Assembly (NCBI GenBank): GCA_016200325.1
Contig: JACQEZ010000019.1
Location: forward strand, 62,001 to 126,000
DNA from: Candidatus Manganitrophaceae bacterium
GTDB taxonomy: Bacteria; Nitrospirota; Nitrospiria; SBBL01; Manganitrophaceae
Direction: 5' to 3'
DNA length: 64,000 bases
Shown here piece by piece: positions 14,197-39,315 of this stretch. Position numbers and translations under genes: made by a program. The stretch's first letter is position 1. Each line of letters opens with the position of its first letter. The notes below the pieces were generated by a model. That model saw only the letters and a list, made by a program, of their open reading frames with translations. It was not told the DNA's origin and did no database searches.

Positions 14197-16599
14197 TTAG
14201 ACTTTCTCGATGACAATCTTATGATGACCGTCCGGCAGCTTCTCGTTCTTCACGACCTTATGTCCTTCCGCCTGAACGCTCCGGGGGACATTGCGGATCG
14301 GCTCCCCGTCATCAAGGATCACCTCCAGCGTCTGGCCGGCATCCATCTCTTCGAGCTGAAGCTTTGTCTTGACGAAATTCATCGGGCAAGCGACCCCCGA
14401 TAAATCGAGCCGGGCATCGACCTCTTTTTGTAAACTCATATCGACCTCACTTTGAATCACCGATGAAACAGTTTCTTTCTTACGTAATTTTAAATTGGCG
14501 TCGAGGCGATCGTACGCCTCTTTGCACTCGCGGACGAAGGCATCGGCCAGCGTCAGCATCTCCTGGAGCGGTTCGGGCTGAAGCGCGAAGGAGGTCCACT
14601 TTCCAAGGTCCTCGGTAAAGTTCTCGAACCGCTCGGTGACGATTCCCTGCTCCACCAGCTTGTGCTGGAACTCTTTGAGGACCTCCTCTTCATGGGGCGA
14701 GTCGATGCCGAAGGGAATCAGCAGCGCCCGGCAGTTGACCAGGATCGCATGCTTGATGTGGCCGACCGTTTCTTCATATTGATGGTGCATCAACGCCACT
14801 GAGGCCTTCTCGATTGATTGGACGCCGGTATGCAAGTAGTGCTCGATCATATCGATCACGGTGCCGGCGCATTCGCCGGGGCCGAGGTCGTCGAGCGAGA
14901 AGTCTTTCTCCTCATTGTAGTCGATGTAATATTCGGGGGCCTCTTGCGGCGTCGGAATCTTCGTAAACCGCTCCAGCCGGACGGCGAGGGCCTCTCGGCC
15001 GAAACGCTCGATGAAGGGATTGAAGCCTTCCTCTTCCCGGCGGTTCTCCCGATAGATCTGCACCAACTCCATGACCGCCGCCGGAATGTTCTTCGCCGGG
15101 ATCTTCACCTTGGAGCTCCCGATCACCGACCGCTCCGCGCTCACCCCGCCTCCCAGATGAAGCTGGTAGTGGGGGGCGAGCTTGCCGTGGACTTTTTTCC
15201 CGACCCCATGTAAACCGATGCCGGCGATGTGATGATGGCCGCAGGAGTTCGGGCATCCCGAGATTCGAATGCGTAACCCATTGAGGTCTTCAAACTCGGA
15301 GAGGTTTTTGCCGAACTCATTGACAATCGCCGCACCCAACCCCATCGACGAGGTCAGCGCCAATTGGCAGCTGTCGGCGCCGGGGCACGAGATGACATCG
15401 ACCGCCCGCTCCGCACCCGCGCCGCCCAGACCGATTCGATCGAGCGCGGCATGAAGCTCGGAGAGCGATTCCTGATGCACCCCCCGGATCAGCAGGTTCT
15501 GCTGGTGGGTCGCCCGAATCTCGCCGGTGGTCGAAAACCGCTCGACGATCTCGGCCATCGCCCGCAATTGATCGGCGGTGATGTCGCCGAGGATTAATTT
15601 GATCTGAACCGCGCAGATGCCGGGAGTCGATTGCGGAATCACGTTGGTCCGGAACCAAGAGGCATGCCCGTTTTGACTTTCAATCATCGGCAGATTCAAC
15701 GGCGCCGCCGGCTGCTTCGGCTCCGGCATCGGCAAGGAGACATAGCTCTTTCCCGACGCCTTCAAGAACGCCCGCTCTCCCGCCACTTTCTCCTTAAACC
15801 AGTCGAGGCCCCATTTTTCGAGGATAAATTTCATCCGCGCCTTGCTCTTGGTCTTTCGATCTCCATGCGCATCGAAGACCTTTAAAATCGCCTCGCAGGT
15901 CGGAAGAATTTCATCGATCGGAAGAAAATCGGTATAAAGCTTGGCGAGCTTCGGGTGCGACCCCAGCCCCCCGCCGACGAAGAGCTTAAATCCGAACTCT
16001 GGCTGCCCGGCGACCTCCCGGCGGGTGGCGATGAAGCCGATGTCGTGAATCGACGCCAAGCCGCACTCGCTGTCACACCCTGAGAAAGAGATTTTAAATT
16101 TACGGGGAAGGTCTTGGTTGATCGGATTGCGCAGAAGCGCATACGCGACCGCCTGAGAAATCGGGGTCACGTCGAACAGCTCGGTCGGGCAGACCCCCGC
16201 CAAATGGCAGGAGGTGACATTGCGCACCGTATTGCCGCACGCTTCCCGGGTGGTCAGTCCCGATTCGGCCAGCCGCGTCATCACGGCGGTGATATCGTCC
16301 AATTTCACAAAATGGAATTGCATATCCTGCCGGGTGGTGATATGTCCCTTGCCGGTGGAATGATGCTCGGCGATGTCGGCGAGACAACGGAGCTTGGGGG
16401 CGGTGAGAAGGCCGGAGGGAATCTTGACGCGGACCATCTGGAATCCCTTTTGCCGCTGTCCATAAATCCCATGCTGAAGCCGGAAGCGCTTGAACTTTTC
16501 CTCCGGGATTTCTTTTTTCTTTAAACGCTCGACTTGAAGGCCGAACGCCTCGATTTCTTTTAAAATTTCTTCTGAAAGGGTGGTCTCGGTATGGCTCAT
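14197..16599 (-). CDS. Ferredoxin-type sulfite/nitrite reductase fused to helical and TusA domains
   Basis: An 800-residue fusion (residue numbers below count from an upstream in-frame ATG, four codons earlier). Residues 1-560 form the doubled siroheme reductase fold, with GHITTRQDMQFH and GEIRATHQQNLLIRG. The C-terminal half has the expected siroheme/4Fe-4S cysteines C409, C415 (CPGADSC) and C453, C457 (CPNSC). The N-terminal half also has a full set, C135, C141, C179, C183. About 575-710 is an all-helical region. Residues 731-804 are a TusA-like sulfur carrier with Cys742 in ACPMNF. Reductions of sulfite or nitrite by six electrons are known for the family; the TusA tail favours sulfur. The start with GAGGGA upstream was chosen. 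Confidence 0.88.
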   Translation of the reverse strand: MSHTETTLSEEILKEIEAFGLQVERLKKKEIPEEKFKRFRLQHGIYGQRQKGFQMVRVKIPSGLLTAPKLRCLADIAEHHSTGKGHITTRQDMQFHFVKLDDITAVMTRLAESGLTTREACGNTVRNVTSCHLAGVCPTELFDVTPISQAVAYALLRNPINQDLPRKFKISFSGCDSECGLASIHDIGFIATRREVAGQPEFGFKLFVGGGLGSHPKLAKLYTDFLPIDEILPTCEAILKVFDAHGDRKTKSKARMKFILEKWGLDWFKEKVAGERAFLKASGKSYVSLPMPEPKQPAAPLNLPMIESQNGHASWFRTNVIPQSTPGICAVQIKLILGDITADQLRAMAEIVERFSTTGEIRATHQQNLLIRGVHQESLSELHAALDRIGLGGAGAERAVDVISCPGADSCQLALTSSMGLGAAIVNEFGKNLSEFEDLNGLRIRISGCPNSCGHHHIAGIGLHGVGKKVHGKLAPHYQLHLGGGVSAERSVIGSSKVKIPAKNIPAAVMELVQIYRENRREEEGFNPFIERFGREALAVRLERFTKIPTPQEAPEYYIDYNEEKDFSLDDLGPGECAGTVIDMIEHYLHTGVQSIEKASVALMHHQYEETVGHIKHAILVNCRALLIPFGIDSPHEEEVLKEFQHKLVEQGIVTERFENFTEDLGKWTSFALQPEPLQEMLTLADAFVRECKEAYDRLDANLKLRKKETVSSVIQSEVDMSLQKEVDARLDLSGVACPMNFVKTKLQLEEMDAGQTLEVILDDGEPIRNVPRSVQAEGHKVVKNEKLPDGHHKIVIEKV

Positions 16600-16635
16600 C
16601 TGTTCCCTCATTCAACCGAAAAAAGATTTTAACAA

Positions 16636-18555: not shown

Positions 18556-18951
18556 ATGCACGCTTCGCATTCTGCAACGCCTTCTTTCAGAAAGAGCCGC
18601 CAGCGGCGGATGATCCTCGAAACCCTCTCCGAAATGAAAACCCACCCGACCGCGCAGGAGATCTTCTCAAAGGTACGCGAGAGCGAGCCGGGAATCGGAC
18701 AAGCGACCGTTTACCGGAACCTCCGGATCCTCAAAGCGCAGGGGGAGATCATTGAGCTGAGCTTCGGCCCCGGCGCCAAGCGGTACGACCGGAATATCGA
18801 CCGACATGAGCACTTTACCTGTCGCCGATGCGGAAAGATCGACGACATTTATCCGAACTACCGCTCTCTCACCGGCAGCCTTCTGGAAAAGGGCTATCAG
18901 GTGGATGAGTGGAAAATAGAAGCCTTCGGCCGCTGCCGAGGGTGCATTTAA
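18556..18951 (+). CDS. Fur family regulator, PerR-like
   Basis: 131 residues. The winged helix has AQEIFSKVRESEPGIGQATVYRNLRILKAQG (key ATVYRNLRIL, recognition helix). The dimerisation domain has HEHFTCRRCGKIDDI and a terminal CRGC, giving the two CxxC pairs of the structural zinc site. The regulatory metal residues H and D in RHEHF fit PerR-like peroxide sensing or Fur-type iron sensing. It is immediately followed by rubrerythrin, which argues for a peroxide/oxidative stress regulator. There is no clear Shine-Dalgarno sequence before the ATG. Confidence 0.87.
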   Translation: MHASHSATPSFRKSRQRRMILETLSEMKTHPTAQEIFSKVRESEPGIGQATVYRNLRILKAQGEIIELSFGPGAKRYDRNIDRHEHFTCRRCGKIDDIYPNYRSLTGSLLEKGYQVDEWKIEAFGRCRGCI

Positions 18952-19021
18952 AAAAGCAGCCCGAAGAAACCGCACGAATCGGCGGTCTAAACTGAAACAG
19001 ACGAAAAAGGGGGAAACAGCA

Positions 19022-19450
19022 ATGGCAAAACCGCTCAATGGAACCAAAACGCATGAGAACCTAAAACACGCATTCGCCGGAGAATCCCAGGCGAATCGCC
19101 GTTACCTCTATTTTGCCCGGAAGGCCGACATCGAAGGACAGCCCGACATCGCCGGTGTTTTCCGTGACACGGCGGAGGGAGAGACCGGACATGCCTTCGG
19201 TCACATGGATTTCCTAAAAGAGGTCGGCGATCCGGCCACCGGCTCGGCCGTCGGCGACACCGCGGTCAACCTTCAGTCGGCGATCGACGGCGAGACCTAT
19301 GAGTATTCGCAGATGTATCCCGGCTTTGCCAAGGCCGCCCGCGAGGAAGGCTTCGACGAAGTCGCCGCCTGGTTTGAAACACTCGCCCGCGCCGAGAAGT
19401 CGCATGCCGGCCGATTCCAGAAGGCGCTCGACAGCATCAAAGGGAAATAA
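19022..19450 (+). CDS. Rubrerythrin without rubredoxin domain
   Basis: 142 residues, a single ferritin-like four-helix bundle. The di-iron ligands are in [33 protein letters not shown] and [11 protein letters not shown], as expected. It lacks the C-terminal rubredoxin module of classical rubrerythrin, so electrons must come from another protein, possibly the GlpC-like Fe-S protein next door. It reduces hydrogen peroxide in related organisms. GGGGGAAA precedes the ATG. Confidence 0.9.
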
Positions 19451-19505
19451 ATGGGATCCGGGCTGGGGGGCGGCGGGAGGGGGACTTCAACCCGCCCCCG
19501 GCCCC

Positions 19506-19534
19506 TTGACCTCTCCCTTCTCCGCTCTTTAGAG
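19506..19534 (+). promoter_or_regulatory. Promoter predicted to give a leaderless mRNA (GlpC-like gene)
   Basis: TTGACC (19506-19511), 17-bp spacer, TTAGAG (19529-19534), then 7 nt (TAAATAG) and the ATG at 19542. The arrangement is identical base for base in -10 and spacing to that of the DsrE gene at 32442. Confidence 0.65.
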
Positions 19535-19541
19535 TAAATAG

Positions 19542-20813
19542 ATGAGTCCCGACCCGTTAAGCCTCATTTCGGAAAACAAAAGATCGCTCCCCCAGGAATT
19601 CGCCCGTGTGGCCGATATTTGCAACGGCTGCCGCCGCTGCTTTAATCTCTGCCCCTCCTTCGATCAGATGTTCATTCGAATCGACGATCGGACCGGCGAG
19701 GCCGATAGCCTCACCCGGAAAGATCAGGACGAGATCACCGAGCTCTGCTACTACTGCAAGCTCTGCTACAACCACTGCCCCTACACCCCGCCGCATCACT
19801 TCAACCTCGACTTCCCGCGGCTGATGCTCTTGGGCAAAGCCGAGATCGCCCAGACCAAACGGCCCGCTTTCCGCGATCGAATCTTGGTCGATACCGATTG
19901 GGTCGGCCGCTGGGGCCGCCGGCTGGCGCCGCTCCTCAATTGGGCCAACTCGGTCCGCGCGATCCGGCTGTTGATTCATCGCTGGCTCGGCATTCACAAA
20001 GACCGAATTCTCCCCCCGATCGCAACAGAGACCTTCATTGAATGGCAGTCGAAGCGCGCGCCGAAGCCCTCCCCTTCCCCTTCGGCAAAGAAGGTCGCTC
20101 TCTTCCACACCTGCTACGTCAATTACAACGCCCCGGAGATCGGGAAGGCAACGGTTCAGGTATTGGAGAAAAATAACGTCGAGACGGTCCACCCCGATCA
20201 GCTCTGCTGCGGGATGCCTTTCTTCGACGTCGGCGACATCGAGTCGGCGCGGCAGAAGGCCCGGTTCAATATCCGATCGCTCGAAAAGGTGATCGCGGCC
20301 GGATACGATATCGTGGCGCCGATGCCGACTTGCAGCTTGATGCTGAAAAAGGAATATCCGGCGCTGCTCGGGCTGGAGGCGAAGATCGTCTCCGAGCATA
20401 CCTTCGATCTCTGCGAATACCTGATGCGGCTCAACGGCGAGGGGAAATTGAACAAAGAATTTACCCAGGCGATCGGGAAAGTCTCGTATCAGATTCCCTG
20501 CCATTTGCGGGATCAGAATATCGGTTACAAATCGCGCGATCTGATGAAGCTGATTCCCGGAACGACCGTCGACGTAATCGAGAAATGCTCCGCCCACGAC
20601 GGAACCTGGGGGATCAAAACCGAATTTTTCGACGAATCGATGAAGACGGCCAAGCCGCTTTTCCGGGCCATCGAAGAAGGGGCGCCCGATCAGGTCGCCA
20701 CCGACTGTCCGTTGGCCGGGATGCAAATTCTTCAGGGAACCGGCCGGGAGCCGCTCCATCCGATTCAGATTCTAAAAAAAGCGTATGGACTCGAGGAGGG
20801 CGAGGAGGGATAG
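19542..20813 (+). CDS. GlpC/HdrD-like iron-sulfur oxidoreductase
   Basis: 423 residues. Two 4Fe-4S sites lie in the N-terminal part, [12 protein letters not shown] (about residues 28-39) and [12 protein letters not shown] (about 68-79). Two cysteine-rich CCG domains follow, with [39 protein letters not shown] and [10 protein letters not shown]. No membrane helix is evident. This is the soluble electron-transfer class that includes heterodisulfide reductase D and GlpC. Between rubrerythrin and DUF3501 it probably passes electrons to rubrerythrin (inference). Confidence 0.85.
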
Positions 20814-20873
20814 GAAGCCCGCTCCTTCCATACGCGCCATGACGCACCTATTTTACCTTTGGGAGCAGGAGAG

Positions 20874-21467
20874 ATGAAAAAAATCGAGGTCGACGACGTC
20901 TATCCATTGGCGGAATACGAAAAGGTTCGAGAAGCGTTTCGGAAGGAAATTATCGAGCAAAAAAAGAAGAGACGGGTTCAGGTGGGACCCTACGTCTCGT
21001 TAACGTTCGAAAATCGAGAGACCCTCCTCTTCCAAATTCAAGAGATGCTGCGCGCGGAGCGGATCGAAGCCCCCGAGAAGATTCAAGAGGAGGTCGACGT
21101 CTACAACGATCTGGTTCCAGGCCCCCGAGAGCTCTCCGCAACCTTGTTCATTGAGATCACCGAGGAGGGAAAGATCAAAGAGGTGCTCGACCGGCTGATC
21201 GGGATCGACCGGGGGGAGACCCTCTTCCTCCAGATCGGAAAAAAGAAGAAAATCCCGGCCCGCTTCGAAACAGGGCGGAGCACCGAGGAGCAGATCAGCG
21301 CCGTCCACTTCATCCGCTTTAAATTGGATATCACCACCATCGAGACCTTCCGGAGCGAGCGGGAGAATTTCGTCGTCATCGAGCACCCCAACTATAAGGA
21401 GCGGGCGGCGATCTCGGAAGAGACAAAAGAACTCTTGCTCGGGGATTTGGACCAGGGAGAGGATTAG
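20874..21467 (+). CDS. DUF3501 family protein
   Basis: 197 residues from the ATG after AGGAGAG; an earlier in-frame start five codons upstream is possible. The whole protein matches the DUF3501 layout: DVYPLAEYEKVR, a VGPYVSLTFENRETLLFQIQEML block (key FENRETLLFQI), NDLVPGPRELSATLFIEI and SAVHFIRFKL. The function is unknown. The gene regularly follows a rubrerythrin and GlpC-type protein in other genomes as I recall, so it likely belongs to the same oxidative stress unit. Confidence 0.8.
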   Translation: MKKIEVDDVYPLAEYEKVREAFRKEIIEQKKKRRVQVGPYVSLTFENRETLLFQIQEMLRAERIEAPEKIQEEVDVYNDLVPGPRELSATLFIEITEEGKIKEVLDRLIGIDRGETLFLQIGKKKKIPARFETGRSTEEQISAVHFIRFKLDITTIETFRSERENFVVIEHPNYKERAAISEETKELLLGDLDQGED

Positions 21468-21527: not shown

Positions 21528-21761
21528 TTACTTTTTCTTCCGCACGTAAACTTTGAAGACTTTTCCTTCTTGGACGAGGTCGACAAACTCGTTTCCGGTG
21601 CTCTTGCACCAGGCCGGCATGTCTTTCTTAATTCCTTCGTCATCGGAGAGAATCTCCAACACCTGATCGATCTCCATCTGCTTAATTCGTTTGGAGGTCA
21701 GAATCACAGGAATGGGACAGAAGAGTCCCAATGTATCGAGCGTTTGATCGGCCGCGATCAT
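21528..21761 (-). CDS. TusA-like sulfur carrier protein
   Basis: 77 residues from MIAADQTLDT. The family motif LGLFCPIPV places the sulfur-accepting cysteine at residue 15, and a second Cys52 in AWCKSTGNEF is typical of the wider SirA/YeeD clade. TusA proteins carry persulfide from a desulfurase to acceptors. It is 30 bp from the stop of a NifS-like gene on the same strand, so the two probably form a unit. The longer frame that starts 10 codons earlier reads into the stop and is less likely. Confidence 0.85.
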   Translation of the reverse strand: MIAADQTLDTLGLFCPIPVILTSKRIKQMEIDQVLEILSDDEGIKKDMPAWCKSTGNEFVDLVQEGKVFKVYVRKKK

Positions 21762-21791
21762 CTTCCTTTTACCTCCCTCATTCCCATCCAA

Positions 21792-22976
21792 TCATTCCCT
21801 CTCTTTTCGGGGTGAGACGTCGGAATAAATCGGAGAGACCTGGCGGATCTCGTCGACCGCGGCGGGAAAGGCGGTCAGGACGGCCTCGATGTCGGCCTCG
21901 GTCGTTTCCATGCCGAGGCTGAAGACGATCCCCCCCTGCGCGATATTCCCCGGCAGGCCGGTGGCGGTCAACACCGGCGAGATCTTCAGCGCCTCGGCGC
22001 TGCAGGAGGACCCGCTCGCCGCCATAATCCCCCGCTTCTCCAGCTTTCGAATAAGCGCCTCCCCGTCGACAAACTCCACCGCAAAGCTGGCGATATGCGG
22101 AAGCCGATCGATCGGATCTCCCGTCGGATGAAGCAGCGGCACCCGTTCCCGGAGCCCGACGACCAGCCGGTCTCGCAGGGCCGCCAGACGGGGCGCTTCC
22201 ACCGAAAGCCGCCGCTTCGCCTCCATCGCCGCGACCCCCATCCCGACGATCGCCGCGACGTTTTCCGTCCCGCTTCGCCTCCCCCCCTCTTGAATTCCCC
22301 CTTCGATCAACGGATGGAGCCGGGTTCCGCGCCGAAGATAGAGCGCGCCGGCCCCCTTCGGCCCATAGAACGGCTGCGCCGAAAAAGAGGCAAGATCGAT
22401 CCCCAGAGAATCAACCTGAAACGGGATGACGCCGACCGTCGCAACGGCGTCGGTATGGAAGAGAACGCCGGCTTCCTGCGTGATCGCGGCGATCGCTTCG
22501 ATCGGCTGAACGGTTCCGATTTCGTTATTCGCATGGAGGATCGAGACGAGAACCGTCTCTTCTCGCAGCGCCGCCGAAACCTGCGCCGCCTGGACCCGCC
22601 CCTGTCGGTCGACCGGAAGCCAGGTCACCTCGAACCCCTCCTGCTCCAGATGTTTGAGGGGATGGGCGACGGAGAAGTGCTCGATTGAGGAGGTAATGAT
22701 ATGCCGGCCCTTCTTCTGACGCGCGGAGAGAACCCCCTTGATGGCGAGATTGTTCGCTTCGCTGCCCGAGCCGGTGAAAACGATCTCGCGCGGATCGGCG
22801 CCGATTAACTCGGCGACCCGCTTGCGGGCCTCCTCCAACGCTTTGCGGGGAACCTCACCGGCCGCATGGCGGCTCTGCGGATTTCCAAAGTGCTCCGCAA
22901 AGAAGGGGAGCATCGCCTCTCGCGCCGCCGGTAAAAGCGGCGTGGCGGCGATGTGATCGAGGTAGATCTTTTTCAT
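21792..22976 (-). CDS. NifS/IscS-like protein lacking the PLP lysine
   Basis: 394 residues with the fold-type I cysteine desulfurase layout: YLDHIAATPL, GSGSEANNLAIKG, SSIEHFSVAHP, HANNEIGTVQP, and a mobile-loop cysteine in ASGSSCSAEA (Cys326 counting from the ATG at 22979). The active-site strand reads FSAQPFYGPKGAG. In IscS this is S-G/A-H-K-x-Y-G-P-K-G; here His-Lys is Gln-Pro, so the Schiff-base lysine is absent, and the PLP-contacting Gln is Ala (HTDAVATVG). Genuine IscS with SAHK is present at 37566. A pseudoenzyme or a changed chemistry is likely. Start chosen at the second of two tandem ATGs because it matches the promoter spacing. Confidence 0.85.
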   Translation of the reverse strand: MKKIYLDHIAATPLLPAAREAMLPFFAEHFGNPQSRHAAGEVPRKALEEARKRVAELIGADPREIVFTGSGSEANNLAIKGVLSARQKKGRHIITSSIEHFSVAHPLKHLEQEGFEVTWLPVDRQGRVQAAQVSAALREETVLVSILHANNEIGTVQPIEAIAAITQEAGVLFHTDAVATVGVIPFQVDSLGIDLASFSAQPFYGPKGAGALYLRRGTRLHPLIEGGIQEGGRRSGTENVAAIVGMGVAAMEAKRRLSVEAPRLAALRDRLVVGLRERVPLLHPTGDPIDRLPHIASFAVEFVDGEALIRKLEKRGIMAASGSSCSAEALKISPVLTATGLPGNIAQGGIVFSLGMETTEADIEAVLTAFPAAVDEIRQVSPIYSDVSPRKERE

Positions 22977-32441: not shown

Positions 32442-32753
32442 ATGGAAAAAAAGAAGCTCGGGATACTCCTCTCGACGGCACCGGAAAATAAAAATCTGAA
32501 AACGGTCTCCGCGCTTGCCCAAGAGGCGGTTCGTCAAGGGATCGATACCTATCTCTACCTGATCGATGACGGCGTCCAAAACCTCGACCGGCCGGAGATC
32601 GACGCCCTCTCTCAAAAAGGGGTGAAGCTCTTTCTCTGCGCCTATGGCGCACAGCGGCGCAGCATCCCCACCAGCGACAAAGCGGTCTTCTGCGGACTCG
32701 TCGTCCTCTCCGATCTGGTGAAAGGATGCGACCGCTTTGTCACCTTCAACTAA
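32442..32753 (+). CDS. DsrE/TusD-like sulfur-transfer protein
   Basis: 103 residues with the DsrE/DsrF fold pattern. The segment GVKLFLCAYGAQRRS places Cys66 at the position of the sulfur-accepting cysteine of TusD/DsrE (xxxCxxxAxxRG-like). Two more cysteines, 84 and 96, lie in VFCGLVVLSDLVKGC. The protein would relay persulfide from TusA to a downstream acceptor. It is the first of three small genes of this type in a row. No Shine-Dalgarno sequence precedes the ATG. Confidence 0.8.
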   Translation: MEKKKLGILLSTAPENKNLKTVSALAQEAVRQGIDTYLYLIDDGVQNLDRPEIDALSQKGVKLFLCAYGAQRRSIPTSDKAVFCGLVVLSDLVKGCDRFVTFN

Positions 32754-32792: not shown

Positions 32793-33140
32793 ATGACCCG
32801 CAAAATTGTCGTCCTGATTCGAAGCAATCCGCAAGAGAGCCATCGCGCATCGGAAGGGATTCGCATTGCGCTCGGACTTGCCTCGGGCGAACATGAGGTC
32901 GAGGTCATTTTAACCGGCAAGGCCCCACTGCTCTTGACGTCTGAATTGGAAGAGTATGTCGATGGAGAGATGACCGAGAAGTTCCTTGCGACATTAAAAG
33001 AGTTTATTCCGATCTTTTATATCGACAAAGAGAGTCTCGACGAGATCGACTTCTCGGCGAGCGATTACAAGCTGATGCCGGTCTCCTCCGAAGAGATCGC
33101 CGAGAAGATCGCGGCAGCCGACCGATTTGCGATGTTTTAG
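32793..33140 (+). CDS. DsrF/TusC-like protein without cysteine
   Basis: 115 residues of the same alpha/beta fold as DsrE-family proteins (VVLIRSNPQESHRASEGIRIALGLA, shown by SHRASEGIRIALGLA, and EVEVILTGKAPLL). It has no cysteine at all, so it is probably the structural partner of the DsrE-like subunit. There is no clear ribosome-binding sequence before the ATG. It follows the first gene by 39 bp, in which AATCTGT is repeated. Confidence 0.72.
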   Translation: MTRKIVVLIRSNPQESHRASEGIRIALGLASGEHEVEVILTGKAPLLLTSELEEYVDGEMTEKFLATLKEFIPIFYIDKESLDEIDFSASDYKLMPVSSEEIAEKIAAADRFAMF

Positions 33141-33149
33141 GTTGATTCG

Positions 33150-33398
33150 ATGAAGAAGATTTTACACATCCTTAAAGTGAAGGACGACCCCTCCCCGCTG
33201 AAGATCATTCAAAAACAAGCGGAGACAAACGCGGTGACGGTCGTGCTGATTCAGGATGCAGGCGAGTTAAAAGTGGATTTAAAAGGGGTGACGGTCTGGA
33301 AGCTGGCGGAAGAAGGGGTTGCGCCCTCCGGTCCCACCCTCGGTTATAAAGAACTCCTCGATGAAATCTTCAAGGCCGACATGGTCGTCACCTGGTAA
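33150..33398 (+). CDS. TusB/DsrH-like protein
   Basis: 82 residues. The N-terminus MKKILHILKVKDD and the C-terminal KELLDEIFKADMVVTW, ending in a tryptophan, are typical of DsrH/TusB proteins, which form the third subunit of the TusBCD/DsrEFH sulfur-relay hexamer. No cysteine is present. It starts 9 bp after the second gene and ends 10 bp before the convergent iscX stop. The three genes together look like a TusDCB-type operon. Confidence 0.75.
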   Translation: MKKILHILKVKDDPSPLKIIQKQAETNAVTVVLIQDAGELKVDLKGVTVWKLAEEGVAPSGPTLGYKELLDEIFKADMVVTW

Positions 33399-33408
33399 GC
33401 GCCGGTCT

Positions 33409-33624
33409 TTACGCTCCCTGGGCGTCTTTGTACTCTTCCAGCCAAGCCATCTGAACCGCTTCTAAAATCGCCTCGTTCGACTTCTTCGGATCGTCCGAAA
33501 AATCGGGAAGGGCCGTGACCATCTGGTGCAGGTCGGTAAAGCGAACCGTCAACGGATCGAGGTTGGGGTATTTCTCCGCCAGCGCAATTCCAATCTCTTC
33601 CGGATCCTGCCAACCGAATTTCAT
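33409..33624 (-). CDS. iscX: IscX (YfhJ) protein
   Basis: 71 residues: [20 protein letters not shown], then [33 protein letters not shown]-like ([11 protein letters not shown]) and AWLEEYKD, all IscX hallmarks. IscX binds IscS and iron and modulates Fe-S assembly. The start is at the family position; a much longer open frame extends upstream but runs through the ferredoxin gap and is not real. It is the last gene of the Isc operon. Confidence 0.92.
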
Positions 33625-33697
33625 CGCCTGTTCGCTCCGTGTTCGTTGCGACCTGAAGCTTCTCTGGAATTCAGTTCCTTCAGAATGAACCGACCGC

Positions 33698-34024
33698 TCA
33701 GTGCTGCTCCGCCTTTCGGAACTCCTGCGTGTTCTTCGGAATTTCGACGACGACATCCCCTTTGATCCGGGCCTGACAACCCAACCGGGAGGTGAGGGTG
33801 AGCCCTTCGGCGGTATCGAGCCGGTCCTCTTCGTCTTCATCCATCTCGGTGAGGTGGTTTATCCCCTCCCGGACGATGACATGGCAGGTGGTGCAGGCGC
33901 AGTTCCCCCCGCAATTATGCTCGAGGTCGATCTGATGGTCGAGCGCCACATCGAGGATCGATTGGTTTTCCTTCGCCTCGAACGTGACCTCTTTTCCTTC
34001 TATTTTAAATGTGACTTTCGGCAT
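33698..34024 (-). CDS. fdx: Isc-type [2Fe-2S] ferredoxin
   Basis: 108 residues. Cysteine ligands are in [14 protein letters not shown] (C-x5-C-x2-C) and LGCQA, the Isc ferredoxin pattern. It supplies electrons for cluster assembly on IscU. It lies between hscA (40 bp) and iscX (74 bp). An ATG start immediately begins [12 protein letters not shown]. The C-terminal end [15 protein letters not shown] is a little longer than the E. coli protein. Confidence 0.92.
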
Positions 34025-34063
34025 TCTAAAGTTCTCTACCTTTTCATTCGTTAGACATCTGCG

Positions 34064-35899
34064 TTAAACATCGGAGAGCTTCTTTTCTTGAAGGGTCTCC
34101 TTCAGCGTTTGATTCATCAAGGCTTCGGCGAGATGCTGCGTCGCCTGATCGAGCTGATGGAGCGCCTCGCGCACCCGGTTGTGATCGGATCCGCTCATCG
34201 TCTCTTTCAGCGCGGCGACGCGGGCCTCGATCGTCCGCTTCTCCTCCGCATCGATCAAGGCGCCCCCTTGTGCCAACGCCCGCTCGGTATGCCGCAGAAC
34301 CGTCTCCGCCTCGTTGCGCGCTTCGATCAACATCCGCTCGCTCAGGTCGGTCCGGGCATGCTCGATCGATTCCGAGATCATCTTCTCCACTTCCGGATCG
34401 GTCAGGCCATAGGTCGGCTTCACCTCGATCGACTGCGCCTTGCCGCTCCGGAGCTCTTTCGCGGTGACGTTTAAAATCCCGTTCGCATCGATCATAAAGG
34501 TTACCTCGATCCGGGGGATGCCGGCCGGCATCGGGTCGATCTCGGTCAGATTAAACTTCGCCAAACTCCGGCAGTCTTTCACCAGCTCCCGCTCCCCCTG
34601 GACGACATGGATCGAGACCGATTTCTGGCCGTCGACGAACGTCGTAAACATCTCCTTCGCGTTCGTCGGGACGGTGGTGTTTCGGGCGATCAGCCGGCTG
34701 ACGACCCCCCCCATCGTTTCGATCCCGAGCGACAGTGGTGTGACATCGAGGAGGAGCATGTTGGTGATGCCGCCCGACAAGATGTCGGCCTGGATCGCCG
34801 CTCCGAGCGCGACCACTTCATCCGGGTTGAGCTCGCTGTGGGGTGTCTTGTGGAAAAGTTCTCCAATCTTTTTCTTCACCAGCGGAATCCGGGTCGACCC
34901 GCCGACCAGGATCACCTCATCGACCTGTTCCGGCGTCAGCCCCGCATCGGAGAGCGCCTGGCGGCAGGGGCCGAGCGTCTTTTCGACAAAGTCGGAAATC
35001 AGCGTCTCGAATTCAGGTCGCGCGATCGGCCGGCGGTAGTCGATCTTCTTTTCCGGGAAGGAGAGGGCGATCTCCGCCTTCTCTTCAAAAGAGAGCCGAG
35101 ACTTGACCTCCTCCGACTTCAACCGGATCTCCTGAAGCGCCTCGGGCGAGGTGGAGAGATCGACGCCATGCTTCTGACCGATCTCGCCGACGATCAGCCC
35201 CATCAACGTGCGATCAACGTCATCGCCGCCGAGATGGGTGTCGCCGTTGGTCGAGAGGACTTCGAAGATCCCGTTTTTGATTTTCAAAATCGAGACGTCG
35301 AACGTCCCGCCGCCGAGGTCGTAGACGACGATCACCCCTTCCTTCTTTTTTTGAAGGCCGTATGCGAGCGAGGCGGCCGTCGGCTCGTTGACGATCCGGA
35401 GGACTTCCAGCCCGGCGATCTTTCCGGCGTCTTTCGTCGCCTGCCGCTGGCTGTCGTTGAAGTAGGCCGGTACCGTGATCACCGCTTGCCGGATCGGCTC
35501 TTTGAAGAAGGCTTCGGCGCGGCGCTTGAGCTCTCTTAAAATAAAGGCGGAGACTTCCGGCGGGGTATAGAGCTTTCCACCGACGGCGATCCGGATCACC
35601 TCTTGCTGGCCGCCGGAGAGCTGATAGGGAACGAAGTTTCGATCGGCGCCGACATCCTCCCCCCCTTTCCCCATGAAGCGCTTGACCGAGAAGATCGTCC
35701 GGTCGGGATGGGTGATCAGATGTTTCTTCGCCGCTTCTCCGACCACCACGCCGTCGGGGGTCCCTTCCCATCCGAACGAGACAACCGACGGGACAATCGC
35801 CCGCCCCTGTTCATCCGGGATGACCCGCGGGGTTCCCTGGTCCATGTATGCGACGAGGCTGTTGGTGGTTCCCAGATCGATTCCGACGACTCTCGGCAT
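34064..35899 (-). CDS. hscA: Fe-S cluster assembly chaperone HscA
   Basis: 611 residues, an Hsp70. The ATPase domain starts [16 protein letters not shown], has [17 protein letters not shown] and [12 protein letters not shown], and the substrate domain ends in a helical lid. It releases clusters from IscU with HscB. Length and lack of the DnaK C-terminal acidic tail fit HscA. The gene abuts hscB directly (stop of hscB and start of hscA adjoin). The predicted partner motif LPPVK is in IscU of this operon. Confidence 0.95.
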
Positions 35900-36628
35900 C
35901 TACGTCCCTTTCTCTCCCTTCAACTTTTCAATCCCCGCCTCGAGATTATCGATGACCCGTTCCAAATAACCCCGGTGCGACAGAATCCGTTTGATCTCGG
36001 CCAAGATCCGCTTCTGCTCTTCGGAAAGATCGGCGTCGCCAGGGTTGTGCCGGGCGTCCTGTAAGCGGTCCCACTCCGAGGAGAATTGATCGAGCGCCTG
36101 CCGCCCCTCCTCCTGACGCGCTTCAAACTTCACTTGCGCCTCCCGCAGCGCCCGCAGGAGCCGGTCGCGCTCAGCCGGGTCGGATGGGACCTCTTTTGCT
36201 TCTTCCAGCAGTTCCTGGACCTCAAAAATCTCATCAAAGAGATCGGCCGGCGCCTCGGTTGAAATCGCTCCGCCTCCTTCGACGCGCTGGATCAGGTACT
36301 CCGCCCGCTGCACCGGATCTCTCAACGTCCGGTAGGCTTTGTTCACGATCGCCGAATTCTCCAGGCTGATCGCCTGCTCCTCCGCCGACTTTTTTTGATA
36401 AAAATCAGGATGGAACGCTCGGCTCAGCTCATAAAATTTGGCTTGAAGCTGGGGAAGATCGATCTTGAGCTGTGCGCCGAGATGGAAGAGGGTGAAATAA
36501 TCGGCCTCTGCCGGAATCGGCTGCAAAGCCGCACACCGATCACAGAGAGAGAGAGATTCGATCTCCGCGCCACACTTCCAGCAGGTTCTTTTTGTCAGGA
36601 GTTCCGTCCTTCCCACCCGATTTATCAT
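35900..36628 (-). CDS. hscB: HscB co-chaperone with N-terminal tetracysteine zinc module
   Basis: About 242 residues. An N-terminal C-x2-C-x9-C-x2-C element (CWKCGAEIESLSLCDRC) precedes the J domain (DYFTLFHLGAQ to RAFHPDFYQKK, with the HPD motif). The C-terminal helical region binds IscU. The E. coli protein lacks the zinc element; it is known in eukaryotic HSC20 and some bacteria. The start is uncertain: the in-frame ATG at 36664 falls inside a hairpin, the ATG at 36628 is preferred, and neither has a strong ribosome-binding sequence. Confidence 0.88.
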   Translation of the reverse strand: MINRVGRTELLTKRTCWKCGAEIESLSLCDRCAALQPIPAEADYFTLFHLGAQLKIDLPQLQAKFYELSRAFHPDFYQKKSAEEQAISLENSAIVNKAYRTLRDPVQRAEYLIQRVEGGGAISTEAPADLFDEIFEVQELLEEAKEVPSDPAERDRLLRALREAQVKFEARQEEGRQALDQFSSEWDRLQDARHNPGDADLSEEQKRILAEIKRILSHRGYLERVIDNLEAGIEKLKGEKGT

Positions 36629-36640
36629 CCGTCGCAGGCC

Positions 36641-36670
36641 TATAAAAATAGAACGGCCCCTCACGGGGCC
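36641..36670 (-). terminator. Attenuator-like hairpin between iscA and hscB
   Basis: On the minus strand GGCCCC-GTGA-GGGGCC (complement of 36655-36670) is followed by the U-rich GTTCTATTTTTA. This looks like a weak intrinsic terminator inside the Isc operon and may lower hscBA-fdx-iscX expression relative to iscRSUA. Confidence 0.6.
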
Positions 36671-36764
36671 TTTATTACCGTCGCCATCTATTCAGCCGAC
36701 TCCGCGTAAGCATCTCCACCGATCAGCCGACGCGGAAGAGCCCTCCTGCCTTCGTTGCTGAAGA

Positions 36765-37115
36765 TTAGGCCGAAAAGGATTCGCCGCAGCCACAGCTTCG
36801 GGTGGCGTTGGGATTGTTGAATTTGAAGCCTCCCCCCACCAGCTCTTTGCTGAAGTCGAGCGTGGTTCCGGCCAGATAAAGAGCGCTTTTCTGATCGATG
36901 ATGACGCGGAGCCCATCGACCTCAAAGGAGAGATCGTGCGGGGTGATCTCCGTTTCGAAATTGAGCGTGTAGGAGAGCCCGGAGCATCCCCCTCCCTGGA
37001 CGCCGACGCGAAGGGCGGCATTCCCGAGATTTTTTCTCTCGATCATCCCTTTGACTTCAGTGACGGCGCTCGGGGTCAGGGCGATCGGCTGTTCTGTTTT
37101 TGTGGTGTTTTCCAT
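36765..37115 (-). CDS. iscA: A-type Fe-S carrier (IscA/ErpA family)
   Basis: 116 residues. The three conserved cysteines are in GVQGGGCSGL and NATRSCGCGESF. The N-terminal ten residues are extra. A-type proteins carry Fe-S clusters to apo-targets; whether this is IscA or ErpA cannot be decided, though position in the operon argues for IscA. It lies 15 bp after iscU. Confidence 0.93.
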   Translation of the reverse strand: MENTTKTEQPIALTPSAVTEVKGMIERKNLGNAALRVGVQGGGCSGLSYTLNFETEITPHDLSFEVDGLRVIIDQKSALYLAGTTLDFSKELVGGGFKFNNPNATRSCGCGESFSA

Positions 37116-37130
37116 ATTTACCTCCCAGCC

Positions 37131-37514
37131 TTACGAAAGGCCGTTCTTCTTCTTATAGTCGCTGATGGCCGCCTTGATGGCATCTTCCGCCAAGACCGAA
37201 CAGTGGATTTTCACGGGGGGCAGATTGAGCTCGCTGACGATATCGGTGTTTTTAATCCCCATCGCCTCATCGAGGGTCTTCCCCTTCATCATTTCAGTGG
37301 CCAAGCTGGAGCTGGCGATCGCGCTGCCACAGCCGAATGTCTTGAACTTGGCATCTTCGATCACGCCGTTGGTGACCTTCAGCTGAAGCTTCATCACGTC
37401 ACCGCACTCCGGCGCGCCGACCACCCCGGTTCCGACATTGGGATCTTGCTTGTCGAGCGACCCGACATTTCGCGGATTGTTATAATGATCAATGACCTTA
37501 CTGCTGTATGCCAT
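37131..37514 (-). CDS. iscU: Fe-S cluster scaffold IscU
   Basis: 127 residues. The three cluster cysteines are in APECGDVM, KTFGCGSA and VKIHCSVLAED, with the aspartate after the first. LPPVK, the HscA recognition motif, precedes the last cysteine. A GAGGAGAG ribosome site precedes the ATG. IscU receives sulfur from IscS and iron and builds [2Fe-2S] clusters. It is 52 bp downstream of iscS. Confidence 0.95.
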   Translation of the reverse strand: MAYSSKVIDHYNNPRNVGSLDKQDPNVGTGVVGAPECGDVMKLQLKVTNGVIEDAKFKTFGCGSAIASSSLATEMMKGKTLDEAMGIKNTDIVSELNLPPVKIHCSVLAEDAIKAAISDYKKKNGLS

Positions 37515-37565
37515 TTCTCTCTCTCCTCACCTATTTAAGACCTTTAAGAACCTACTTTAAGATCT

Positions 37566-38783
37566 TTAAGATCGTTGCCATTGAACATTCTTGATATCGA
37601 TCCCCTCTTTGGCCATCTCATAAAGAGGAGACATCTCTCGAAGCCGTTGAACGGTTTCAATCACACGCTGGGTAACGAAATCGACCTCTTCTTCCGTGTT
37701 GAACCGGCCCAATCCGAAGCGAAGCGAGGAGTGCGCCAAATCGCTTCCGACCCCCAAGGAGCGAAGGACGTAGGACGGCTCCAAGGTGGCGGTGGTGCAG
37801 GCCGACCCGGAGGAGAGGGCGATCTCCTTCAGACCCATCAGCAGCGATTCCCCTTCGACATAAGCAAAGCTCATATTAAGGTTGCCCGGAAGGCGGTCTG
37901 TCGGATGTCCGTTGAGGTAGACTTCATCGAGCCCTTTTTGGATTCCTTCTTTCAACTTCTCTCGAAGGCGGTTCAACCGGGCGGTCTCCTCCGGCATCTC
38001 CTTCTCGCAGAGCGCACAGGCCTCCCCGAAACCGACGATCCCGGGGACATTCAACGTTCCCGATCGCATTCCCCGTTCGTGCCCGCCGCCGTCGAAAAGT
38101 GGGGCGATTCGGACCCGGGGATTCTTCTTTCTCACATAGAGCGCGCCGACCCCTTTCGGACCGTAGATTTTATGGGCCGAGAACGACATCAGATCGATTC
38201 CCATCGCCTGAACATCGACCGGGATCTTTCCGACCCCTTGGGTGGCATCACAATGGAAGACGACCCCTTTTTCTTTGGCGATCTTTCCAATCTCCGCCAC
38301 CGGCTGGATCACGCCGATTTCATTGTTGGCCATCATCACCGAGATCAGGATGGTCTTTGGGGTGATCGCTTGCTTCAGCGCCTCAAGGGAGACCTTTCCC
38401 TCTTTGTCTACCGGAAGATAGGTCACCTCATAGCCGACCTTTTCAAGCCGCTTGCAGGTATCTAAAATCGCCTTGTGCTCGGTGACGACCGTGATGATGT
38501 GGTTTCCCTTCTCCCGGTACATTTCAGCGACCCCTTTGAGGGCCAAATTGTCCGACTCGGTCGCACCGCTGGTGAAAATAATCTCCTTCGGATCGCAATG
38601 GATCAGATGGGCGATCTGCTCACGCGCATGATCGACCCCCTTCTCCGCTTCCCAACCGAACGCATGGTTTCGGCTGGCGGAATTTCCGAATTTCTCCGTA
38701 AAATAAGGGAGCATCGCTTCCAGAACGCGAGGGTCCATCGGGGTGGTCGAATGGTTATCCAGAAAAATAGGAAATTTCAACAT
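37566..38783 (-). CDS. iscS: Cysteine desulfurase IscS
   Basis: 405 residues from [15 protein letters not shown], chosen because GAGGAG is three bases upstream. The PLP lysine lies in [13 protein letters not shown], the His in [12 protein letters not shown], and the mobile-loop cysteine in [12 protein letters not shown]. It liberates sulfur from cysteine for IscU and for TusA-type carriers. It differs clearly from the NifS-like protein at 21792, which lacks the lysine. It follows iscR by 54 bp. Confidence 0.95.
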
Positions 38784-38837
38784 AAACTCCTCAATTATAG
38801 TAGATGACCGACAGACGATCAACGCTCGCCTTGGCAA

Positions 38838-39269
38838 TCAACGGACCGTGATCTCTTCGATCACTTCCTCTGCATACATCTGATCGATCGTGAACTGATC
38901 CAAAAGCTCGATAATCCGACCCTCAATCTTTCGAAGGGGGCTGCGGACCGTACAACGTTCCGATTGTAAACAGGCGGTCTCCCCCTCGTGACATCGGACG
39001 ATTTGGACCGGCCCTTCGATGGCACGGATGATCTCTCCCACGGTCACCTGCGAAGGATGCTTGGCCAATGTATATCCGCCCTTAGGCCCGTTTTGGCTGA
39101 CAATGATCCCTTTTTTTGCCAGCCTTTGGAGTATTTTTGCCAATAATTCCAAAGGGATGTTATATATCTCCGAGATGGTTCGGGTGTTGGCGACGGAATC
39201 GTCCTTTTGGCAAGACATAAAGTTAATCGCCATCAGGGCGTAATCGGTTTTTTTGGTTAGCTTCAGCAT
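38838..39269 (-). CDS. iscR: Isc operon repressor IscR (Rrf2 family)
   Basis: 143 residues from MLKLTKKTDYALMA, the family start; a longer frame reaches 39311 but is not needed. The helix-turn-helix is in YNIPLELLAKILQRLAKKG, and three cysteines in VRCHEGETACLQSERC bind a [2Fe-2S] cluster. Apo and holo forms bind different sites; here a type 1 site overlaps the promoter, so holo-IscR likely represses the operon. Confidence 0.92.
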   Translation of the reverse strand: MLKLTKKTDYALMAINFMSCQKDDSVANTRTISEIYNIPLELLAKILQRLAKKGIIVSQNGPKGGYTLAKHPSQVTVGEIIRAIEGPVQIVRCHEGETACLQSERCTVRSPLRKIEGRIIELLDQFTIDQMYAEEVIEEITVR

Positions 39270-39315
39270 AATAAATCCAAAATAAGGGCGACCTTTTCTG
39301 TCTCCGACCATTTCA

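Follow-up and report, generated by a model that had tools for sequence, protein, structure and literature searches.

Background: IscS homologues and sulfur carriers

Cysteine desulfurases have been described as the start of sulfur trafficking to Fe–S clusters. The precedent for the protein reported here is the IscS of Archaeoglobus fulgidus, which two papers describe as lacking the catalytic lysine, as having no desulfurase activity and as supplying a cysteine ligand to the [2Fe–2S] cluster of IscU (PMC7585200; PMC9769115). Its crystal structure 4EB5 is described with pyridoxal phosphate (PLP) in a figure legend of the second of these papers. In Escherichia coli, sulfur passes from IscS to TusA; the sulfurs of IscS Cys328 and TusA Cys19 lie 4 Å apart in the complex, TusA and IscU compete on IscS, and mixed (IscS)2(TusA)(IscU) complexes form (PMC11302665). 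The minimal ISC (MIS) system of anaerobes and archaea, composed of IscS and IscU homologues, was described with a cysteine desulfurase (PMC12192291). In anaerobes of the Methanococcus maripaludis type, sulfide is the source of Fe–S sulfur, and the SufBC of Methanosarcina acetivorans is not the sulfide-specific system (PMC10500019).

Neither the A. fulgidus IscS, which is inactive and structurally studied, nor the M. acetivorans IscS1 (MA0808) has so far had a sulfur source assigned to it. At the level of titles and abstracts, no report of a linkage of such proteins to TusA was found in the literature, a coverage that does not extend to the original publications on A. fulgidus IscS or to the MIS/SMS paper of 2022.

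A lysine-less IscS homologue in Manganitrophaceae

The window analysed here is a stretch of 64,000 nucleotides from a Candidatus Manganitrophaceae bacterium (Nitrospirota). On its minus strand, where an earlier note made from the sequence had placed a cysteine desulfurase homologue, a frame of 394 amino acids runs from an ATG at 22976 (or 22979) to a stop codon at 21794–21792 (feature 21792–22976). The product matches Pfam Aminotran_5 (E 4e-71; aminotransferase class-V, fold-type I, IscS type) and scores below the NCBIfam equivalog cut-offs for both NifS (454.6 vs. 530.75) and IscS (351.7 vs. 643.2). The motifs FSAQPFYGPKG, ASGSSCSAEA and SSIEHFS read exactly as that note had quoted them. By alignment to E. 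coli IscS, whose numbering is used below, His205 and the Schiff-base Lys206 are replaced by Gln201 and Pro202 (codons CAG CCG, 22371–22376, minus strand, with the proline CCG at 22373–22371), and Gln183 is replaced by Ala179, all three as the note had it; a fourth replacement, Arg354 by Val351 (codon 21924–21926, minus strand), had escaped it. In E. coli IscS, Gln183 and His205 are PLP contacts and Arg354 is a ligand of the substrate carboxylate. Retained are His104 (His100), Asn155 (Asn150), Asp180 (Asp176), Ser203 (Ser199) and the mobile-loop Cys328 (Cys325; codon 22002–22004, minus strand). With the lysine, the glutamine and the substrate arginine gone, the alignment supports the view that this protein would have given up L-cysteine desulfurase chemistry, the arginine adding to what the note had argued from the other residues.

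The AlphaFold2 model of the protein shows the complete IscS fold (mean pLDDT 93, pTM 0.91), falling below a pLDDT of 50 only at the cysteine loop (326–329) and the last four residues, and superposes with Z scores of 53–56 on human NFS1, E. coli IscS and A. fulgidus IscS. The alignment and the model thus agree with the note that the loop cysteine, the histidine of SSIEHFS and the overall fold are kept. The group I cysteine desulfurases E. coli IscS and NFS1 share with the window protein the fold, the mobile-loop cysteine, His104, Asp180 and Asn155, whereas their catalytic lysine, His205, Gln183 and Arg354 are missing from it.

Orthologues from the same order are 64–85% identical to the window protein and, where the active-site part was read, carry QP, QQ or QS at the His-Lys position, never His-Lys; more distant members of the class have QT, SQ, NQ or QS there. 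Hence this copy is not one altered alone among close homologues with His-Lys, one of the two cases which the note had named as its own refutation. The loop cysteine is invariant in a 20-sequence alignment of orthologues, and the dN/dS ratio against three congeners is about 0.11. Plasmid records searched for homologues gave only matches below 60% identity. A sequencing or assembly error, or a decaying paralogue or pseudogene, has the lost catalytic residues as its sole support, and was rejected on account of the lysine-less orthologues in the order, the open frame, the low dN/dS, the invariant cysteine and the confidently modelled fold; we regard it as barely credible.

TusA, DsrE and isc genes around the window gene

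The neighbour announced by the note is indeed a TusA sulfur carrier (21528–21791, minus strand; Pfam TusA, E 2e-23), with a CPxP cysteine and a second cysteine in DMPAWC. Its likely ATG, near 21761, lies about 30 nt downstream of the stop codon of the lysine-less gene and is preceded by a GGGAGG ribosome site. Farther off, two DsrE-like proteins are encoded on the plus strand at 32442–32753 (PF02635, E 9e-10) and 32793–33140 (PF02635, E 1e-06), followed at 33150–33398 by a third small protein of the set, perhaps DsrH/TusB-like, which has no significant Pfam match and parallels in position the third small open frame in another family of Nitrospiria (L049). Beside them lies a canonical isc operon, iscR-iscS-iscU-iscA-hscB-hscA-fdx-iscX (33409–39311, minus strand), the iscS of which has His-Lys; this lysine-bearing IscS (37566–38837) is the real one that the note had pointed to near 37566.

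The operon and the DsrE pair lie 10–16 kb from the lysine-less gene, and iscU about 14 kb from it. No IscU gene is adjacent to the lysine-less gene in the window, and in its order this gene has TusA beside it and no adjacent IscU; the canonical operon is the likely source of IscU for it in this genome. Since the genome encodes a SufS-like protein as well as the lysine-bearing IscS, desulfurases that look active, the lysine-less protein is not the sole sulfur supplier of the organism. In four other Nitrospiria loci (L049, L050, L051, L053), the lysine-less gene comes immediately after the canonical isc operon.

Distribution and conserved residues

Lysine-less homologues were collected from a scan of 84,980 species genomes together with searches within the Nitrospirota and within the archaeal phylum to which one locus (L116) belongs. 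They occur in Thermodesulfovibrionia and other Nitrospirota, deltaproteobacteria, Omnitrophota, Dehalococcoidia/Chloroflexi, Acidobacteriota and Nitrospinota and, among the archaea, in Bathyarchaeota, ANME-2, Archaeoglobus and Methanosarcina-like genomes. In 60 lysine-less sequences, Cys328, Asp180 and His104 are present throughout (60/60), Arg354 is never found (0/60) and Gln183 is found once (1/60), whereas Arg354 and Gln183 are each present in 83 of 85 lysine-containing sequences. Many different residues stand in place of the lysine (Q, P, S, D, E, T, N, R, L, M or I), a spread that speaks against a newly acquired catalytic residue at this position.

Asp180 and His104 hold the PLP ring, and their invariance bears on a further explanation, namely that the protein still binds PLP, though not covalently, and catalyses a different reaction with a persulfide or an amino acid as substrate. 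The description of 4EB5 with PLP (PMC9769115) agrees with such binding. However, the Schiff-base lysine, Gln183 and the substrate-binding Arg354 are all lost, and we consider a different PLP reaction quite improbable. The two retained residues leave room for PLP that may be structural. The note's phrase "loss of PLP chemistry" therefore stands as far as the catalytic residues are concerned, but does not extend to an absence of PLP.

Two proteins of the same clade as the window protein (L058, 8001–9167; L154, 4052–5227) retain His-Lys, have Gln in place of Arg354, have lost Gln183 and are encoded beside TusA and IscU; they may represent intermediate stages on the way to losing desulfurase activity. 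The A. fulgidus IscS (PDB 4eb5, 4eb7, 4hvk, 4r5f) resembles the window protein in fold (Z about 53, rmsd 1.1–1.4 Å, 41% identity), in the loss of the lysine (Asp in its place), of Gln183 (Ala) and of the substrate arginine, and in the retained loop cysteine; a second A. fulgidus copy is, as in the window, clustered with TusA. However, the A. fulgidus protein belongs to a separate clade, has an SND motif where the window protein has SAQP, and only there is IscU adjacent. The M. acetivorans IscS1 type likewise has no lysine (Thr in the relatives examined), keeps the loop cysteine and has TusA adjacent, along with a DsrE-like gene. In contrast to the window protein, it falls in a third clade, keeps the Arg354 equivalent (SVRFTFG) and His205, with Gln183 absent, and is accompanied by an IscU1 with a C-terminal FeS_assembly_P domain; in a Methanosarcina-like genome, such an IscU lies at L293:4826-5584.

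Number of lysine losses

In trees built without the catalytic columns, the window protein falls in a bacterial clade (support 99/94). A second clade (100/99), which sits among lysine-containing proteins, includes the A. fulgidus IscS, and the Methanosarcina IscS1 forms a third one with a long branch. The lysine-less state requires three to four changes on these trees, and a single origin appears in no bootstrap tree. An approximately unbiased (AU) test rejected one clade of all lysine-less proteins (p 0.002) but not one in which the lysine-retaining, Arg354-less L058 and L154 were counted as members (p 0.117), so that the case against a single origin is not firm. Several independent losses are thus likely, although not proven.

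Linkage to TusA and other partners

The linkage to TusA was counted on loci chosen by IscS similarity alone, without regard to their neighbours, with TusA scored when it lay within 2 kb on the same strand, as it does in the window. TusA was found beside 45 of 58 lysine-less copies compared with 3 of 88 lysine-containing ones (Fisher p about 3e-22, uncorrected), and the former count becomes 46 of 58 when a TusA missed by the length filter (L134) is added. Two of the three lysine-containing exceptions are L058 and L154, which have lost Arg354 and Gln183. In archaeal loci, TusA stands beside 13 of 16 lysine-less copies, and two of the remaining three lie on contigs that end close by. In Methanosarcina-like genomes, TusA accompanies all seven lysine-less copies (seven genomes) but none of the 17 lysine-containing copies obtained in the same search (12 genomes). 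The NifS-like genes with lysine usually have IscU beside them and no TusA. The homologue comparison that the note had called for thus gives a conserved lysine-less clade linked to TusA. Nevertheless, the tree provides only two to four independent pairs of lysine loss and TusA, too few for a sign test to reach significance, and the association rests on few independent events.

Recurrent further partners of the lysine-less proteins are IscU, DsrE-type proteins and Rrf2 regulators. The order tusA-dsrE-iscS-iscU, with the lysine-less iscS, is found both in A. fulgidus (L211) and in a Methanosarcina-like genome (L293). A deltaproteobacterium (L056) has rubrerythrin (by sequence reading), lysine-less IscS, IscU, zinc ribbon, DsrE and TusA in succession, and another locus (L048) has lysine-less IscS, IscU, TusA and Fur. 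The partner IscU carries NPxCGD and FGC in all 31 proteins examined and a recognised HCS motif in 30 of the 31, and the partner TusA keeps its cysteine in every case apart from one unclear detection (L139). No fusion of a lysine-less IscS with TusA, or of IscU with TusA, was seen among the fetched loci.

These neighbourhoods bear on the possibility that the lysine-less protein is a scaffold and cluster ligand only, which would hold IscU and lend it the loop cysteine, with sulfide coming from solution and TusA serving tRNA thiolation or cofactor sulfuration. The A. fulgidus IscS, as described in the passages cited above (PMC7585200; PMC9769115), is just such an inactive cysteine ligand, its crystallised copy (L210) has DsrE-like and IscU neighbours and no TusA, and anaerobes such as M. 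maripaludis take their Fe–S sulfur from sulfide (PMC10500019). However, a pure scaffold leaves unexplained why TusA, often with DsrE, tracks the loss of the lysine so closely, even between copies of one genome, and we judge this explanation to be unlikely, if worth keeping in view.

Alternatively, the protein could act on TusA or IscU as a decoy or regulator, binding TusA or forming heterodimers with canonical IscS and so tuning how the active IscS distributes its sulfur. The canonical isc operon near the window gene, or immediately upstream of it in other Nitrospiria, would suit this role, as would the competition of TusA and IscU on E. coli IscS (PMC11302665). A pure decoy, however, has no need of the loop cysteine, which is kept in all 60 lysine-less sequences, and the only high-scoring IscS/NifS-type matches in A. 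fulgidus are its two lysine-less copies, the next Aminotran_5 match having 88 bits and being known by score alone. We hold such a role to be improbable. Of the functions that the note had offered, sulfur acceptor or scaffold lies close to the lysine-less A. fulgidus IscS as described in PMC7585200, whereas "regulator of TusA" is less well supported, as DsrE, IscU, Rrf2 and the nearby isc operon point to TusA as a donor of Fe–S sulfur and not as a regulated client.

A proposed route of sulfur

The reading to which we lean, by a little, is that the lysine-less protein is a PLP-independent persulfide acceptor and hub passing sulfur from TusA to IscU. DsrE-type carriers would probably load TusA from inorganic or persulfide sulfur; TusA would dock on the dimer of the lysine-less protein in the way known from E. 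coli IscS, and its sulfane sulfur would move to Cys325 in the loop. This loop, being flexible, could then swing to IscU and deliver the sulfur, and Cys325 may double as a ligand that holds the cluster for a time, like the loop cysteine of the A. fulgidus protein. The genomic pattern behind this proposal consists of the correlated loss of Lys206, Gln183 and Arg354, the strict retention of the loop cysteine, the retained fold, purifying selection and the repeated neighbourhood of TusA, DsrE and IscU. A shared neighbourhood by itself proves neither sulfur transfer nor its direction; the direction of flow, the complex and, for the window organism, the supply of IscU by the isc operon are what we infer from this pattern. 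A flow from DsrE/TusA persulfide through the IscS cysteine to IscU is the economical reading in view of the A. fulgidus precedent, the TusA and DsrE neighbours and the 4 Å geometry of the two cysteines in E. coli.

The E. coli IscS–TusA complex (3lvj) and the TusBCD/DsrEFH relays share with the window the TusA partner and the presence of DsrE-type carriers, but sulfur there moves from IscS to TusA, the opposite of the direction proposed here. Compared with MIS, desulfurase chemistry is absent and TusA/DsrE are added. The linkage thus offers a concrete donor and would have sulfur run from TusA to IscS. The lysine-less state, known before from a few archaea, now also takes in Nitrospirota, deltaproteobacteria, Acidobacteriota, Omnitrophota, Chloroflexota and others, so that automatic labels of "cysteine desulfurase" are probably wrong for a sizeable family. 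More broadly, bacteria and archaea may have a desulfurase-free Fe–S route with the usual flow reversed: DsrE and TusA would feed inorganic or persulfide sulfur to a PLP-dead IscS that is a mere hub for IscU, and the route would have arisen repeatedly through loss of the PLP lysine; this wider proposal is plausible but falls somewhat short of an even chance.

Further sulfur and redox genes

A siroheme nitrite/sulfite reductase with two NIR_SIR repeats and, according to domain matches, a C-terminal TusA domain is encoded in the window at 14197–16611 (minus strand). In two congeners (L036, L037), a frame of similar length at the equivalent position ends in a TusA-like match. Such a fusion could couple sulfite reduction to carrier-bound sulfur, and it is a possible inorganic sulfur source for the lysine-less IscS system, its membership of which is speculative. 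Elsewhere in the same genome, a second TusA gene is followed by a DsrE-like gene (G000:C4:78115-78908; L292:6089-6927).

In an ANME-2 genome, the IscU next to the lysine-less IscS carries a fused pyridine nucleotide-disulphide oxidoreductase domain (L116:7335-8687), which is possibly a built-in persulfide reductase, and a similarly long IscU frame occurs at L223:2697-4028. The IscS-IscU-TusA-Fur genes of L048 (5939-10258) lie directly 3′ of a frame that, on reading its sequence, resembles the catalytic subunit of carbon monoxide dehydrogenase. Convergent to the TusA and lysine-less IscS genes of the window, a plus-strand group (18556–21467) encodes a Fur-family regulator, rubrerythrin, a GlpC/Hdr-like Fe–S protein and DUF3501, of which the rubrerythrin-GlpC-DUF3501 part recurs in L049.
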